Shown: one piece after another, positions 328 to 33,097 of the stretch
Layout: every line of letters starts with the position of its first letter
Numbering within the stretch: position 1 is the first letter of the stretch
Source: an uncultured Rhodospirillaceae bacterium
GTDB lineage: Bacteria; Pseudomonadota; Alphaproteobacteria; UBA8366
Direction: 5' to 3'
Length of the DNA: 48,359 nt
Assembly: GCA_913043025.1 (NCBI GenBank)
Contig: CAJWLM010000022.1
Coordinates: forward strand, 1-48,359
The notes under the pieces: generated by a model
The model's database searches: none
Seen by the model: the letters and a program-made list of their open reading frames with translations, nothing else
What the model was told of the DNA's origin: nothing
Program-made: the position numbers and the translations under genes

Positions 328-738
328 ATGACCAAACATTTTCTGCGTATGGCGACGTTTTGTGTTTTACTGATCGGTGGGCCTGCGGTAGTGCAGGCAG
401 AAACTGATTGGATCGTCTATAAGCCAGGCGTTGTAAAAGAGGTTGTAGTAAAAGGGGATACTGTTCTTCTTGGCTACCTGTCTACTTGGTGAGGAACCTG
501 CGCGCAGCAAAAAAGCGTGCTTAAGGAGCTCCGTGCGAGCCACCCGAAATACAATAAAATTATTAAATTCATTCTTGTCGACTGGGACAATTTCAACTCA
601 CACGCTGTTACAACTAGTCGTGCCATTCCACGGAGGTCTACTCTTGTACTATTAAAAAATGGGAAAGAGGCTAGTCGGTTGGTCGCGGAGACGAATATTA
701 AGAAGATAAAAACGTTTCTAGATAACGGGCTAAAATAG
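328..738 (+). CDS. Exported thioredoxin-like selenoprotein (UxxC), UGA-encoded selenocysteine
   Basis: The frame opens at ATG 328, seven bases after AGGAG, and runs 136 codons to TAG 736-738, broken only by TGA at 490-492. Residues 1-24 form a Sec signal peptide (MTKHFLRMAT..., cleavage after VVQA), so the product should act in the periplasm. The TGA is residue 55 in W-U55-G-T-C58, the place of the first cysteine of a thioredoxin CxxC motif. Downstream, the fold continues without damage: helix after the motif, the strand FILVDWD, the cis-proline segment AIPRRSTL (P101), and a final strand and helix. From memory, cysteine homologues in Rhodobacterales carry WCxTC followed by a similar VPRRSTL segment. 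Sec is inferred, since no sel genes lie in this window. The alternative is a nonsense mutation or a sequencing error in a TGC/TGT codon. The intact downstream frame and the adjacent hairpin argue against decay. Confidence 0.78.
493..532 (+). promoter_or_regulatory. Bacterial SECIS-like stem-loop after UGA 490-492
   Basis: The stem GCGCGC (500-505) pairs with GCGTGC (515-520), six pairs including one G-U, around a nine-base loop AGCAAAAAA (506-514). The second loop base, 507, is G. Lower pairs are possible: 497-498 with 525-526, and 493-495 with 530-532, separated by internal loops. Bacterial SECIS elements are hairpins inside the coding region just after the UGA, with a G among the first loop bases, which SelB reads. 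Only 13 bases lie between the UGA and the loop, slightly shorter than typical. A competing four-pair hairpin (506-509 with 518-521) exists. Confidence 0.6.
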
Positions 739-2145: not shown

Positions 2146-2330
2146 CTAAACCTATCAAAATTCTTATCTAACTCAGAGATCATTAGAAGCAGTCTTTTAT
2201 CATGATCTCTTATTTTCCTGGTGCCATCTTGCTTATTCTTAGTTTAATGCATCATAATAAAACGTTACAGCCATCGTACGTTAAATGCGTGAATACTCAG
2301 TAGGTAAAGATGTAGCATTTGGGGAGATCC

Positions 2331-3434
2331 ATGCCAGTAAGCAAACAAACACTCAACATTTGGATTGCGTCATGTGCGCATGTGCATAGTGACCTGCTCC
2401 ATAATCGGCGTAGTTTTGCCGAAGCAGTTGAGCAAAGTGAAAATGGGGGCAGGGAAGGTGGTCCACCTTTCGATTGGGATATAATGCTTTATCTTGGTGA
2501 TTTCGTCGGGACGCATCACCCGCCAACAGACAAAGAGGCTGAAGCCGTTTTGGCTCAACTCAATTCGGTACAGAAACACACAAAATCGCAGATTTACTCA
2601 ATTGCCGGCAATATAGATGCAAGTGGGCCGAATGAAAAAACACAATGGTGGTTTCGTAAATATATTGATCCGACAGGAGAATGTCCGGAGTTATCCGGTG
2701 TGAAAAATGAAGAGAGACCTTATCCGGTTGTTGGTACGTGGGAACGATATCGGTTCAATATTGGAAATGTATCTGTCTTAATGATGGGTGACCGGAACGA
2801 TGGCGGCCCGCCGCAGGGTCGTGCCGAAAAAGGTGGGTGGCCGGCGGGTGCAATCACTGATGAGACATTTGCTTGGTGGCGAAAAGCGGTAGAGAATAAT
2901 GATGACCAGATAATGATTACCTGTGCACATCATCTCCTCCGGGATACGACCACGGCAACGGCACCATTTGAAGGAGTTAATGGCGGTTACCATAAGCGTT
3001 ATGATGACGCTGAAGGTGCTTCTTATCTGTATTTTGTTGGTGAGGATGCTAATACGGACCAATTCGAGGATGTATTCAAAAATAATGTTGGCAAGCTATC
3101 CTTTTGGTTCGGTGGTCATACTCACACTCACCCAGATGATCTTTATGGAGATAAAAGTCTTGTTGAAAAACGCTGGGGTACAACTTTTTGTAACGCCGCT
3201 GCTCTAACCCGTCACCATGGTAGCTTTGACCAAAATTTCACTCAGGAAGGCCAACCTTTACGAACTGGTACACCAATGAGTAGATTGCTAACTTTCACCG
3301 AGGGATCTCAAGAGGCAATCCTTAAGTGTTATTTGCATACATCAGATCACGCGCCGCAGGGCTGGTATGAGCCACAGGAACGCGTCATTAAATTACCGCA
3401 GCCATTTAGCTTCGATAGTAAGAGGATTGGCTAG
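2331..3434 (+). CDS. Calcineurin-like metallophosphoesterase
   Basis: The protein has 367 residues. ATG 2331 follows GGGGAGA and is preferred to the in-frame TTG at 2319. Motifs of the calcineurin-like phosphoesterase superfamily appear in order: CAHVHSD (residues 15-21), YLGDFVG (54-60), GNID (93-96), CAHH, and near the C-terminus GGHTHTH. Together these bind two metals. The substrate cannot be told; enzymes of this fold cleave phosphomonoesters or diesters. There is no signal peptide, so it is cytoplasmic. A methyltransferase and a dioxygenase follow on the same strand, suggesting one transcription unit. Confidence 0.85.
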   Translation: MPVSKQTLNIWIASCAHVHSDLLHNRRSFAEAVEQSENGGREGGPPFDWDIMLYLGDFVGTHHPPTDKEAEAVLAQLNSVQKHTKSQIYSIAGNIDASGPNEKTQWWFRKYIDPTGECPELSGVKNEERPYPVVGTWERYRFNIGNVSVLMMGDRNDGGPPQGRAEKGGWPAGAITDETFAWWRKAVENNDDQIMITCAHHLLRDTTTATAPFEGVNGGYHKRYDDAEGASYLYFVGEDANTDQFEDVFKNNVGKLSFWFGGHTHTHPDDLYGDKSLVEKRWGTTFCNAAALTRHHGSFDQNFTQEGQPLRTGTPMSRLLTFTEGSQEAILKCYLHTSDHAPQGWYEPQERVIKLPQPFSFDSKRIG

Positions 3435-5339: not shown

Positions 5340-6226
5340 CTACAGAACGTTCAAAATATTATTTGCCATAGTAGGATGATTGTCAGCAATATTTGTCCTG
5401 CGCAGAATGCGAGGATATTTATCAATAGGGTAAGGGCTCGCTCGATGCAAACAGGCACGGTTATCATACATCACTAAATCGCCGACCTGCCATTTGTGAT
5501 CATATGTAAATCTTTTTTGACCAGCAAACTTCAGCAACATCTCCAATTCTTTGCAGCTTTCTGCTTTATCTTCCCCTTCTATGTAGGCTGCATATGAACT
5601 CACATAGAGGGCTTTTTGCCCGTTTACAGGATTTACCCGCATCATTGGATGTCGTACGGGTGGGAATTTTTTTGCCTCTTCATCACTAAGAAATTTAATA
5701 TTCATGTGGCGACGAGAATGTGCGTAGTGATGAACGGCTGTTCTATTTTGAAAACGCTTCTGGTCCTCTTTGGACAGTCCATTCCAAGCAGCTCTGAGGG
5801 GGTGGCAAATTGTGTATGGCCACCCTCAGGCGGAACGATACACGCCCGAAGAATTGAGGCAATGGAAGGGATTGATTTATAGGACCCATCGGTGTGCCAC
5901 ATCCTTTGACCTTTTCGGAAGCGCGCGCGAGGTTCGTTAGCTTTATATAAATTCCCTTCTTTGTCATAGTTTATTACAACATTTATATTAGGTCGGTGGT
6001 GATAGCTCCCAAAGTTTTTGCGCGGCCGTTCGGATACACCAAAGTATTCGGTAAAAGCGATATGTGCCTCGTCTGTTATGAATTGTTTTGGAAAGAAAAG
6101 TAAGGAATTCTCCTCGAATGCTTCCCTCAGTATATCTATCATGCCGCGGTTAAGCTTCTGTGATAGATCAATGTTGGTTATTTTCGCTCCAAATACTGGA
6201 GTTAATCGACAAATACTTGGTTGCAC
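5340..6226 (-). pseudogene. TauD/TfdA dioxygenase split by a one-base frameshift (second copy)
   Basis: The upstream part (6226 to about 5800, GTG start after AAGGAGGA) carries the family N-terminus and WHTDGSYKS with the first His and Asp. In the same frame it then runs into nonsense ending at 5702. The other frame continues the protein: AWNGLSKEDQKRF, HHYAHSRRH, then PPVRHPMMRV and the distal histidine in NRACLHRASP, ending at 5340. The switch falls at or near a run of five C on the coding strand (G5798-5802 on plus). A sixth C would join both halves into one protein of about 295 residues. It is either a recent pseudogene or an indel error in the homopolymer. All catalytic residues survive across the two parts. 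Confidence 0.8.
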
Positions 6227-28820: not shown

Positions 28821-29536
28821 TGTCAGGTATGGCGTGTTTATCAATCAAAGGACTAAGAAGCGGCTATGGTAACATAGAGGTGTTAAAAGGGATAAGTATT
28901 GACGTTAATGCTGGCGAAATTGTCACGTTGATTGGGGCCAACGGCGCCGGAAAAACTACTTTGCTTATGACAATCTGTGGCAGCCCACGTGCGTCCTCTG
29001 GCGAAATATTATTTAATGATTGTAATGTAGTAGCAAAGGCGACACATGAGATAATGGGTCTGGGTATTTCTCATTCCCCTGAAGGGCGGAGAATATTTCC
29101 GCACATGACTGTTTTGGAAAATCTACAGCTAGGATCCTTTACGAAGCATTTTTCGGAAAAAAGACTACGACATGTTTATGATCTGTTTCCTGTGCTTTAC
29201 GAGCGGAAGCAACAGAGGGGAGGTACTTTATCCGGGGGAGAGCAGCAAATGTTGGCCATCGGTCGCGCTTTTATGGCACGGCCACAATTATTGCTGTTAG
29301 ACGAGCCTTCACTCGGTTTAGCACCGTTGATGGTCAAACGGATATTTGAAGCGATTAATGAAATAAATGAGGTGCATGGCACGGCTATACTTCTCGTTGA
29401 ACAAAACGCACTACAAGCATTACGCCTAGCAAACCGCGGATATGTTTTGGTTAATGGCAAAATATTATTGGCTGGCAGTGGCAAAGAATTGCTTACGAAT
29501 AAGGATATTCAGAAAGCTTATCTTGAGGGAGCTTAA
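28820..29536 (+). CDS. livF: ABC transporter ATP-binding protein (LivF)
   Basis: The protein has 238 residues from GTG 28820, which overlaps the livG stop by one base (TAGTG); ATG 28829 is an alternative and the frame is open further upstream. Walker A is GANGAGKTTLL, the signature LSGGEQQMLAIGRAFM, Walker B LLLLDEPSLGL, H-loop LLVEQN. It is the second ATPase of the transporter. Confidence 0.95.
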   Translation: MSGMACLSIKGLRSGYGNIEVLKGISIDVNAGEIVTLIGANGAGKTTLLMTICGSPRASSGEILFNDCNVVAKATHEIMGLGISHSPEGRRIFPHMTVLENLQLGSFTKHFSEKRLRHVYDLFPVLYERKQQRGGTLSGGEQQMLAIGRAFMARPQLLLLDEPSLGLAPLMVKRIFEAINEINEVHGTAILLVEQNALQALRLANRGYVLVNGKILLAGSGKELLTNKDIQKAYLEGA

Positions 29537-29626
29537 TAAAGTTCAAGATCATTTTATTGCTCGTGCCTGTAGTGTGCTATGGATAGATCTAAATGAAAGA
29601 ATGTCGTAGTTAGGAGGACCTGCTAA

Positions 29627-30754
29627 ATGAGCAAAAAATTGACAATAATACTTGCACTCGCTGTCGTTGGCCTTGGAATATATATATTTGGAGACAAAGG
29701 CGAAAAATATAGCCCTGAAAGTATTACTATTGCCGTCGTAGGTCCAATGACTGGTCAGCAAGCTACCTTCGGTGCGCAGATGAAAGCTGGTGTTGAACAA
29801 GCTGTCATAGATGTAAATGCTGCAGGTGGTGTTCTAGGAAAACAGATCAAACTAGCAATCGGCGATGACGCATGTGATCCAAAACAAGCTGTTGCTGTAG
29901 CAAATAAGATGGCGGGGAAAGGCATAAAGTTGGTGGTCGGACATTTTTGTTCAGGCTCTTCAATTCCCGCATCAAAGGTCTACTCGGAGGAGGATATTCT
30001 GATGATCTCGCCGGGGTCTACAAATCCTAAACTTACTGATGAGGGTGATTACAATGTGTTCAGGACCTGTGGGCGTGATGACCAACAAGGCGCAGTGGCA
30101 GGCAAATATATTGCGGAACATTTTAAGGGGAAACGGATAGCTGTGATTCATGACAAGACTGCGTACGGTAAAGGCCTAGCTGACGAGACAAAAAAATCAA
30201 TGTATAAGGCTGGCTTAAAAGAAGCGCTTTACGAAGCGTATACCGCAGGTGAAAAGGATTACTCAGCACTCGTCTCCAAGCTCAAATCAGAATCTATAGA
30301 TGTTCTTTTTGTAGGGGGATACCATACAGAAGCTGGATTGATTATGCGGCAAATACGGCAACAGGGGATGTCAACTGTGCTTGTATCGGGCGATGCGCTA
30401 ACCACAAGCGAGTATTGGGGCATAACAGGCAAGGATGGTGAAGGAACTTTGATGACTTTCAGCCCGGATCCACGCAAAAACCCTGCTGCTGCTAGGGTAG
30501 TAAAGTCTATGAGGTCAAACAATATAGAGCCAGAAGGCTACAATCTTTACTCTTATGGGGCGGTTCAAGCTTGGGTGGCTGCTGTAACTTTGGCAAAAAG
30601 CACAGAGCCTAAAAAGGTCGCTGCCACTCTTCGTAGTACTTCTGCGGAAACAGTGTTGGGTAGGATTGGCTTTGATAAGAACGGTGATGTCAATGCGCCT
30701 GGCTATGTTATGTATGAGTGGAAAGGTGGCACATACGACTACGTAGAAAAGTAG
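29627..30754 (+). CDS. Branched-chain amino acid type periplasmic substrate-binding protein
   Basis: The protein has 375 residues after a strong AGGAGG site. A hydrophobic N-terminus (KKLTIILALAVVGLGIYIFG) exports or anchors it. The Leu/Ile/Val-binding fold begins ITIAVVGPMTGQQATFGAQMKAG, and ligand-region segments such as VVGHFCSGSSIPAS and ISPGSTNPKLTD are family-typical. It delivers the substrate to LivHMGF. Family members bind amino acids, amides or aromatic acids, so leucine is not certain. Confidence 0.93.
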   Translation: MSKKLTIILALAVVGLGIYIFGDKGEKYSPESITIAVVGPMTGQQATFGAQMKAGVEQAVIDVNAAGGVLGKQIKLAIGDDACDPKQAVAVANKMAGKGIKLVVGHFCSGSSIPASKVYSEEDILMISPGSTNPKLTDEGDYNVFRTCGRDDQQGAVAGKYIAEHFKGKRIAVIHDKTAYGKGLADETKKSMYKAGLKEALYEAYTAGEKDYSALVSKLKSESIDVLFVGGYHTEAGLIMRQIRQQGMSTVLVSGDALTTSEYWGITGKDGEGTLMTFSPDPRKNPAAARVVKSMRSNNIEPEGYNLYSYGAVQAWVAAVTLAKSTEPKKVAATLRSTSAETVLGRIGFDKNGDVNAPGYVMYEWKGGTYDYVEK

Positions 30755-30769
30755 TTGGGGACCTGAGCT

Positions 30770-31969
30770 TTGTTTTCTATGACAGCACGGTGTTGGCTGT
30801 TTTTAGCCATATTTTTTTTCAGCGTGAGCAGTGCTGCGAGTGAGCAACTTACTAATTTTGATGATTGGTTAGCTGACTTCCGAGCCTCTGCCTCTGCCGC
30901 AGGAGTTTCAGAGCGCACGCTAAGTGCTGCGCTAGATGGGACAAAGCCATTGCCTGACGTTATAACAAAAGATCGTCGGCAGGCAGAATTTACACTTTCC
31001 TATTGGCGGTATATGAAAAGGGTAAACTCAAGGCGTGTTCAAAAGGGAATAAGTCTTTTAAAAACTCATAAAAGTTTACTTCAGCGTGTAACTAATAAAT
31101 TTGGAGTGCCAGCCCACTATCTGATGGCCTTTTGGGGTTTAGAAAGCAATTTTGGAAAAAGCTTTGGGGGGTACCGAGTTATTCCTGCGCTGGCTACACT
31201 GGCCTATGACGGTCGGCGGTCGAGATTCTTTCGCGCGCAATTACTAGCAGCACTTAAGATTGTTGATAATGGCGATATCACCCTTCAGAGTATGCGGGGC
31301 TCCTGGGCGGGAGCTATGGGGCATTTCCAGTTTATCCCAACCACTTATCAAGCCTACGCAGTTGATTTTGATGGCGATGGGAAGAGAGATATTTGGAATA
31401 ATATGGCTGATGCTTTTGCCTCGGCAGCTAACTACCTGTCTTCATTAGGCTGGGATCCCAAACAAAAATGGGGGCGAGAAGTAAAGCTCCCCGAACATTT
31501 TGATTTTTCAGAAGCAACGCTTAGCGATTGGAAACCGCTATTCGAATGGAATAAAGGAGGCGTAAAGCGAATCAGTGGTGCTAGTTTACCTAATATCGAC
31601 ATCAAAAGTTGGTTGGTAGTACCGGCGGGACATAAAGGGCCGGCTTTTGCAGTGTATCCCAACTTTAGACGCATCATGCGATGGAATAATTCTATTCTTT
31701 ACGCAATCTCAATCGGTCATTTAGCAGATAGGTTAAGGGGCGCCGGACCAATAAGTATTGCTCGCCCCAAAAATTATCGACGAGTAAGTGTTGAAAAAGT
31801 GAAAGAAATTCAGGCAAGGCTTAATTCAATGGGGTTTTCTGCCGGCAACCCAGATGGAGTTGTTGGCAAAAACACAAGGTCTGCTATTAGAAATTTTCAA
31901 AAGCTAAAAAATATGCCCGCTGATGGACACATAACAATAAAATTATGGGAACGCGTTGTTGGAAAATAA
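30770..31969 (+). CDS. mltB: MltB-type lytic murein transglycosylase with peptidoglycan-binding domain
   Basis: The protein has 399 residues. A signal peptide (residues 1 to about 24) directs export. The catalytic glutamate is E125 in FWGLESNFGKSFGGY. The family segment SWAGAMGHFQFIPTTYQAYAVDFDGDGKRDIW follows. Residues about 335-399 form a PG-binding domain (VKEIQARLNSMGFSAGNPDGVVGKNTRSAIRNFQ). It cleaves the MurNAc-GlcNAc bond leaving anhydro-MurNAc. The envelope genes rlpA and a D,D-carboxypeptidase follow. Confidence 0.94.
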   Translation: MFSMTARCWLFLAIFFFSVSSAASEQLTNFDDWLADFRASASAAGVSERTLSAALDGTKPLPDVITKDRRQAEFTLSYWRYMKRVNSRRVQKGISLLKTHKSLLQRVTNKFGVPAHYLMAFWGLESNFGKSFGGYRVIPALATLAYDGRRSRFFRAQLLAALKIVDNGDITLQSMRGSWAGAMGHFQFIPTTYQAYAVDFDGDGKRDIWNNMADAFASAANYLSSLGWDPKQKWGREVKLPEHFDFSEATLSDWKPLFEWNKGGVKRISGASLPNIDIKSWLVVPAGHKGPAFAVYPNFRRIMRWNNSILYAISIGHLADRLRGAGPISIARPKNYRRVSVEKVKEIQARLNSMGFSAGNPDGVVGKNTRSAIRNFQKLKNMPADGHITIKLWERVVGK

Positions 31970-32050
31970 TGTGTTATTGCTCGATATCCTGTCGCTGTTT
32001 AAACTAGTTACTTGCGATCGCAATATATTTGGGAAAGCGGTCAGGTGGAG

Positions 32051-33097
32051 ATGGTTGTAAATAAATTTTTAAATATAGTTATTATACTGCTGTTGTCTGT
32101 GATACTCGCAAACTGTTCAGAGACACAATTCATCGCTAATTTGATGAAAGTTGGCGCTGACAATGTCGGGCAAACTGGGGGCGGTCGCTACAAGGTTGGA
32201 GGGCCTTATCAAATAAAAGGCATTTGGTATCGACCTCGAATTGATTACCAATACGACCAGACTGGCATCGCTTCATGGTATGGACCTCAGTTCCATGGCA
32301 AGCTCACCGCTAATGGCGAAATCTTTGATATGAACCTTGTGAGTGCAGCGCACAAAACATTACCTATGCCAAGTATGGTGCGGGTGACTAACTTACGCAA
32401 TGGCAAGGCTTTGAATATTAGACTTAATGACCGGGGGCCATTTGCTCATGGCAGGATAATTGATTTGTCTAAGCGAGCCGCTCAATTACTTGGTTTCGAA
32501 AGGGCAGGGACGGCACCGGTTCGAGTCCAATTGCTCGAGCGTGAGAGTAGATTACTCGCCTCTGCTTCCCAAGGTGTAGTATTACCCGGCACTCAATTGC
32601 CCGGTGCCGGGCCAGTAGATGCAAACTCAAGCGCTCAGGCTCCAAGGTCAGCACCAAGTGTGTCCGTGACGCGACAAGCATTACCGCCGCCTACCGGCAC
32701 TCAATCCTCACCTCAATCCTCACCTCAATCCTCACCTCAATCCTCACCTCAATCCTCAATCAATGGGAAAGATGAGGCGGATTCGTTACCTGATAGAAAA
32801 AGGTCTCGTCTGGCTGAAACAATAAAATTATCAGATGAAAAAGTATCGAGAGTAGCTGTCAAAGCTAACACTCAAATATACGTTCAAGCTGGAGCTTTTT
32901 CGAAATTTGTGAATGCTAATCGAATTCATGTTCAATTAGGTTCGTTGGGGCCTTCAATCATCAGTAGGACAAAGAAAGGGAAAGGAAGGCTCTTTAGGGT
33001 ACGTCTCGGTCCATATCCTGATGTGAAAACTGCCGATGGAATTTTAGCACGCGTCATGGGTTCAGGCTTTCCGGGGGCACGTATAGTAGTTGATTAA
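32051..33097 (+). CDS. rlpA: RlpA-like septal lytic transglycosylase, lipoprotein, with SPOR domain
   Basis: The protein has 348 residues from ATG 32051 (GGTGGAG upstream). The N-terminus is hydrophobic and ends ILANC22, a lipobox with an unusual asparagine before the cysteine. The double-psi beta-barrel covers GIASWYGPQFHGKLTANGEIF to LNDRGPFAHGRIIDLS. A linker rich in Pro, Ser and Gln follows, including the SSPQ repeats at 32701-32758. The C-terminal SPOR domain (about 275-348, IYVQAGAFSKFVNANRI) binds denuded glycan at the septum. Confidence 0.93.
   Translation: MVVNKFLNIVIILLLSVILANCSETQFIANLMKVGADNVGQTGGGRYKVGGPYQIKGIWYRPRIDYQYDQTGIASWYGPQFHGKLTANGEIFDMNLVSAAHKTLPMPSMVRVTNLRNGKALNIRLNDRGPFAHGRIIDLSKRAAQLLGFERAGTAPVRVQLLERESRLLASASQGVVLPGTQLPGAGPVDANSSAQAPRSAPSVSVTRQALPPPTGTQSSPQSSPQSSPQSSPQSSINGKDEADSLPDRKRSRLAETIKLSDEKVSRVAVKANTQIYVQAGAFSKFVNANRIHVQLGSLGPSIISRTKKGKGRLFRVRLGPYPDVKTADGILARVMGSGFPGARIVVD
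32701..32758 (+). repeat. 12-base tandem repeat inside rlpA
   Basis: The unit TCAATCCTCACC occurs 4.8 times in perfect copies, coding (S-S-P-Q)n in the disordered linker between the DPBB and SPOR domains. Copy changes by multiples of 12 keep the frame, so the linker length can vary without loss of function. Confidence 0.97.

Follow-up and report, generated by a model that had tools for sequence, protein, structure and literature searches.

What does a TGA codon stand for when it opens the active-site motif of an otherwise intact thioredoxin-like gene? The question is raised by a frame running on the forward strand from an ATG at 328 to a TAG ending at 738 (136 codons) of the window, by which we mean the whole 48,359-nt stretch of DNA that was analysed. 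The window is a complete contig (G000:C22) of a 3.08-Mb genome, G000, which is 97.4% complete; the host is a marine bacterium, and its named close relatives are metagenome-assembled genomes (MAGs) recorded as Rhodospirillaceae (Alphaproteobacteria). The preliminary description of this DNA had reported a 136-codon frame interrupted once, by a TGA where the first residue of a CxxC motif is expected. Such a frame is indeed present: its sole internal stop is the TGA at 490-492 (codon 55), in the context ...GYLSTW-U-GTCAQQ..., where U is the first position of a U-G-T-C motif. A probable ribosome-binding site, AGGAG, lies at 316-320, 7 nt 5' of the ATG, and codons 1-24 (328-399; MTKHFLRMATFCVLLIGGPAVVQA) specify a probable export signal, judged from this sequence and five other clade members, with cleavage likely after A24. 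The TGC at 499-501 encodes Cys58, the second redox residue of the UGTC motif, which is invariant in a 28-row alignment and presumably has a resolving role. We propose that the gene product almost certainly contains selenocysteine (Sec) at position 55, because related genes keep an in-frame TGA exactly where other bacteria have cysteine. With an in-frame TGA as its Sec codon, the gene would therefore be shortened by gene-calling software.

The distribution of this codon among relatives carries the main weight of the argument. The preliminary description had advised aligning cysteine homologues through residue 55, and in that alignment TGA occupies one column in all 16 distinct TGA-form genes, six from the window's clade and ten from another alphaproteobacterial clade; the 30 other rows, corresponding to 29 distinct genes, all have cysteine there. 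Retention of the UGA in at least two species was taken as a criterion for Sec, and the 16 genes come from family codes f1, f71 and f151 and from two named MAGs. A search of 98 relatives returned a match in 22 genomes, four of which have one in-frame TGA at the same codon position. Besides G000 these are one congener out of two, at 71% identity, and, from the eight further genomes that share its family code, two at 63 and 62%. From the weak matches of this search L014 (realigned as L048) and L015 alone entered the alignment, and the others showed no stop; L015 is the same gene as L063 and was left out of the trees. The same four TGA genomes were recovered from 43 genomes of the order. Across the class (385 genomes) a match was found in 19 and a TGA in five, namely G000 and four genomes from two other family codes, and across the phylum (398 genomes) there were 13 matches, 12 of them without TGA. 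All eight matches among 15 genomes of the order of G228 have one TGA, and six of these are new. Finally, seven loci came from GTDB contigs, comprising two more TGA forms (L041 and L044, placed in the window's clade with a support of 99/100), two that correspond to loci already found and three cysteine forms in Shimia, which also belongs to the Alphaproteobacteria.

Is the host equipped to read UGA as selenocysteine? The sel genes that the preliminary description had proposed to look for are all present in G000, each over its cut-off: selA (29084-30424, 578.7 bits), selB (30470-32347, 442.2 bits) and tRNA-Sec (32593-32685, 71.2 bits) stand consecutively on contig C4, and selD (309 bits) is on contig C2. 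A second selenoprotein gene is located downstream of tRNA-Sec. It belongs to the UGSC family (L030:14480-15028, equivalent to G000:C4:34480-35028; NF041046, 149.5 bits, cut-off 125) and has the motif context ...AIGD-U-GSCTSC...; its TGA form also occurs close to the sel genes in three (G002, G003 and G007) of the nine other genomes examined. The selA gene was over the cut-off in eight of eight TGA-form genomes and two of 14 cysteine-form genomes, a count that covers the genomes other than the six new ones from the order of G228 and the MAGs L041 and L044. The two cysteine-form genomes that have a thioredoxin of this type despite selA being over the cut-off are G137 and G314. The selB gene was over the cut-off in 23 of the 98 relatives, and at the thresholds used the window-type gene was not found in five selB-bearing genomes of the window's family code. 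An Rfam scan of the window matched a tRNA-Ser alone.

Other explanations of the in-frame TGA can be weighed against these data. Since TGA is one base away from a Cys codon, the gene might be a pseudogene or carry a sequencing error in which such a codon was mutated or misread; the preliminary description had considered that resequencing might show TGC or TGT at 490-492, or that related strains might hold further inactivating mutations. Close relatives keep TGA instead, the codon is common to 16 genes from separate assemblies, and a second internal stop occurs in none of the 16. Over codons 56-136 dN/dS is 0.05-0.15 in the nine of 15 pairs of the window's clade for which it could be computed, synonymous sites being saturated in the other six, and the frame downstream of the TGA is under purifying selection. 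The codons that follow the TGA are themselves conserved: among same-residue pairs of five window's-clade genes (excluding L013, nearly a duplicate of L012), codons 56-73 show the same codon in 104 of 137 cases, compared with 105 of 258 for codons 1-54 and 154 of 423 for codons 74-136. None of 20,000 permutations was as high for codons 56-73, a segment whose upper border was set after the alignment had been viewed. Reassignment of TGA to another amino acid would also leave the frame open 3' of the TGA, as is seen, but TGA acts as an ordinary stop in the window, where it ends 11 of 38 ORFs (38 picked from a list of 61); moreover, the 30 other rows have Cys, not Trp, at this column and the full sel set is present. 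A reassigned code, a pseudogene and chance read-through were rejected on the conserved TGA column, the dN/dS values, the codon conservation and the lack of further stops, and we assign a negligible probability both to the pseudogene or error and to the altered code. UGA decoding is often inefficient, and the UGA might instead serve mostly as a stop, with occasional read-through, so that the main product would be a short, 54-residue exported peptide. This seems hardly more credible, given that amino-acid change in the window's clade is as low 3' of the TGA as in the mature part 5' of it. In the predicted model residues 1-54 end between strand 45-51 and helix 56-71, and a product that stops before this helix could therefore not form the thioredoxin fold.

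What might direct the insertion of Sec at codon 55? The codons just 3' of the TGA are kept beyond the needs of the protein, and RNAalifold, applied to six genes, predicts two hairpins on the forward strand in this region. Hairpin A (500-520, with 500-505 pairing with 515-520) has its loop 13 nt past the UGA, and two of its six pairs are broken in some sequences. Hairpin B (528-540, GCUC-CGUGC-GAGC) is a candidate SECIS. It takes the form GCUC-CGUG(C/A)-GAGC in the window's clade, and its counterpart in the other TGA clade, G(A/G)UC-CGUGN-GAUC, lies 18 nt closer to the TGA, on different residues. The joint motif, GNTC-CGTGN-GANC, occurs once in each of the 16 TGA genes, with a spacing from the TGA of 38-39 nt (window's clade) or 20-21 nt (other clade), and in none of the 30 cysteine rows. 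Ten genes served to define it, and six found later proved to carry it at the expected place; these six share a family code with earlier ones and, as near relatives, are not independent. Random synonymous recoding, carried out for seven of the 16 genes, yields the motif at P ~0.003 (window's clade) and 0.02-0.04 (other clade); these values do not multiply because the genes are related. The motif is absent from the 20-kb sel region, the UGSC gene included.

When 54 nt are folded, the minimum-energy structure contains hairpin B or its counterpart in 13 of 16 genes (not in L011, L095 and L097), and folding energy showed no excess over shuffles in the seven genes out of 16 that were examined, where z ranged from -0.02 to -0.88. 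Of the four pairs of hairpin B, three are invariant and one has changed on both sides; the covariation is not significant, as 310 of 500 shuffles match the count of both-side-changed pairs and 32 of 500 the covariation score. The bacterial SECIS model has a loop of 3-9 nt, a stem of 4-16 bp, a G in the first two loop positions, a distance of 16-37 nt from the UGA and an energy of -7.5 or lower, and a subset of bacterial SECIS elements fails it (PMC13188914). The preliminary description had suggested a bSECISearch run; compared by hand with the published model, the window gene did not conform in spacing, as its stem and loop are within the model and its distances, 39 nt for hairpin B and 13 nt for hairpin A, are outside 16-37 nt. 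The other TGA clade is within the model at 21 nt. On balance, hairpin B is likely to act as the SECIS.

The two hairpin positions suggest either two events of Sec gain or one relocation. In the best tree there are two Sec clades among the cysteine genes, with two changes, and a single Sec clade appears in 1% of 200 bootstrap trees. We do not claim two origins, because a single clade survives the AU test with the Sec column masked (p-AU 0.336). Tentatively, and as an idea that we hold to be possible rather than likely, Sec may have been gained twice or the SECIS re-sited, the same SelB-recognised hairpin, GNUC-CGUGN-GANC, having arisen at two sites of homologous genes that are separated by 18 nt, share their codon phase and fall on different residues. 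In the window's clade a second helix between the UGA and the hairpin would then let the 39-nt spacing work, and the Sec form would run without a dedicated CcdA.

What kind of protein is produced? With Cys read at codon 55, the translation scores 37.4 bits against Pfam Thioredoxin (PF00085; cut-off 23.5), and the predicted model, with a mean pLDDT of at least 94 in every ten-residue block from residue 31, matches thioredoxins (best solved structure Z 17.3 over 103 residues), which bears out the thioredoxin fold past the TGA noted in the preliminary description. The equivalog model of thioredoxin proper was not reached (TIGR01068, 36.3 against 96.8 bits), nor was PF13098 (12.6 against 27 bits), and none of the NCBIfam models was at cut-off for the window protein. 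Nine positions are invariant in the 28 rows when Sec is read as Cys: W54, residue 55, C58, Q61, D87, T105, E114, R117 and T122. A cis-proline opposite the active site is typical of thioredoxins. Its place, inferred from the alignment, is taken in the window protein by Ser104 (codon 104, 637-639), the residue before strand 105-110, and Ser, Ala or Gly stands there in 46 of 46 rows, going by alignment and not coordinates; with the cis-proline apparently replaced by serine, reactivity may therefore differ from that of thioredoxin. The protein is probably exported, to judge from its N-terminus: all six members of the window's clade have a signal-like N-terminus ending in (A/V)QA. An N-terminal RRxFL, which we take to resemble twin-arginine export signals, is found in seven of 30 cysteine rows (L045-L047, L080, L083, L089, L090) and four of ten genes of the other TGA clade (L051, L093, L094, L097); all six members of the window's clade lack it, and the export route may therefore differ between clades.

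The window gene belongs to the already known UxxC thioredoxin-fold selenoproteins, since UxxC thioredoxins and thiol:disulfide-interchange proteins are families listed in earlier surveys (PMC13188914, PMC1088965, PMC2398784). The preliminary description had called an exported version uncommon; this is only partly right, as UxxC thioredoxin-like and thiol:disulfide-interchange selenoproteins already figure in PMC13188914 and PMC2398784. For a CcdA-linked or periplasmic thioredoxin selenoprotein, no published title was found in the literature searched (titles and abstract openings). With the Trx selenoprotein of Table 1 in PMC13188914 (PF00085, UxxC), the window protein shares the fold, a PF00085 score over the cut-off and Sec at the first position, but it has a signal-peptide-like N-terminus, Ser at the cis-Pro place and the low TIGR01068 score given above. 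One listed thiol:disulfide interchange selenoprotein has the domain PF13098, whose cut-off the window protein does not reach (PMC13188914). Trx-like 2 (thiol disulfide interchange protein, cd02953, UxxC), with 22 selenoprotein sequences from Global Ocean Sampling (PMC2398784), is like the window protein marine, UxxC and of the thiol:disulfide interchange class; compared by description only, it may be the same family. The cysteine forms of Shimia (L045-L047), CcdA-linked thioredoxin-like proteins, are 38-40% identical to the window protein and share with it an IPRRST stretch and a signal-like N-terminus, whereas they have Cys for Sec, a CcdA-like gene ~0.7 kb upstream and no hairpin motif. DsbD and ScsB electron relays have a C-terminal thioredoxin-like domain. 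The window protein would resemble this domain as a thioredoxin-fold shuttle for a DsbD-type membrane transporter; unlike it, the protein is separate and soluble, has Sec for Cys and, when relatives were scanned, reached no more than 16.7 bits with the DsbD model.

Where would the electrons come from? Within 1.5 kb of the gene, a CcdA motif is present throughout the other TGA clade (ten of ten genes) and in 22 of 30 cysteine rows, the latter being a low count because the motif misses at least one clear neighbour (L062); seven CcdA-type neighbours were scanned and all pass DsbD_TM. The donor in the other TGA clade and most cysteine-form relatives is probably this adjacent CcdA-like gene. In the window's clade the search for a CcdA motif around the gene was negative for all six members, for one of which the window offers only 327 nt upstream. 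A CcdA protein query of 11 genomes (including G000, G002 and G005, not G009) found in G000 only a 704-aa protein, encoded on another contig (G000:C7:78237), with DsbD_N, DsbD_TM (passed) and Thioredoxin_7 domains. We infer that the window selenoprotein may be re-reduced by this DsbD-like protein or by a CcdA too diverged to be found. The neighbours of the window's clade include no clear partner. A 371-aa protein (2319-3434, forward strand), with no Pfam match at E 0.001, accompanies the gene in G000, G002, G005 and G009, its counterparts in the last three being 85-92% identical, and is absent from the L041 and L044 stretches; it names no client. Beside the copies in G005 and G009, but not the others, lie DUF4149 and two unknown proteins. 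Two Sel1-repeat-like proteins on the reverse strand (772-1155, below the Pfam cut-off, and 1225-2145) adjoin the gene; their counterparts next to the gene in G002 are 90% and 87% identical. Farther along, the overlapping reverse-strand ORFs at 5340-5705 and 5702-6226 both match one 295-aa protein of G009 (L033:9861-10748); the pair is a frameshift, either real or an assembly error.

Based on these observations, we propose a working model in which an exported thioredoxin-fold selenoprotein takes part in a reductive periplasmic relay and its UGA is decoded via a downstream hairpin; as a whole, this explanation appears to us quite probable. SelB and tRNA-Sec would insert selenocysteine at the UGA (490-492) under the guidance of a hairpin in the RNA immediately 3' of it, most likely that at 528-540. 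In the exported protein, the selenol of Sec55 would attack a periplasmic client at a disulfide or an oxidised thiol, and Cys58 would resolve the mixed bond, giving a selenenyl-sulfide. This would be reduced by a CcdA/DsbD-type membrane transporter with electrons from the cytoplasm, which in the window's genome would be the 704-aa DsbD-like protein, the sole one found. The reductive direction of the relay and its donor are put forward with somewhat less assurance, as rather likely. A true selenoprotein might also have peroxide removal or repair as its chief role, for example as partner of a peroxidase or sulfoxide reductase. Sec often serves peroxide chemistry, CcdA-linked thioredoxins in other bacteria feed peroxidase or sulfoxide reductase-type enzymes, and the neighbour shared by four genomes points to no client. 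We consider it unlikely nonetheless, as the UxxC motif on a plain thioredoxin fold suits a thiol-disulfide carrier and no peroxidase family was over the cut-off in the family scans.

What would a selenoprotein of this kind imply? The 16 TGA and 29 cysteine genes, with the motif at two distances, constitute a natural experiment on the limit of the SECIS-UGA distance, and the same set of genes bears on whether Sec was gained once or twice. The finding raises the question of how a periplasmic selenol stays reduced and whether it needs a CcdA of its own. It adds a well-supported, probably exported UxxC selenoprotein family, spread under three family codes of one class, whose TGA-form members standard gene calling would truncate.
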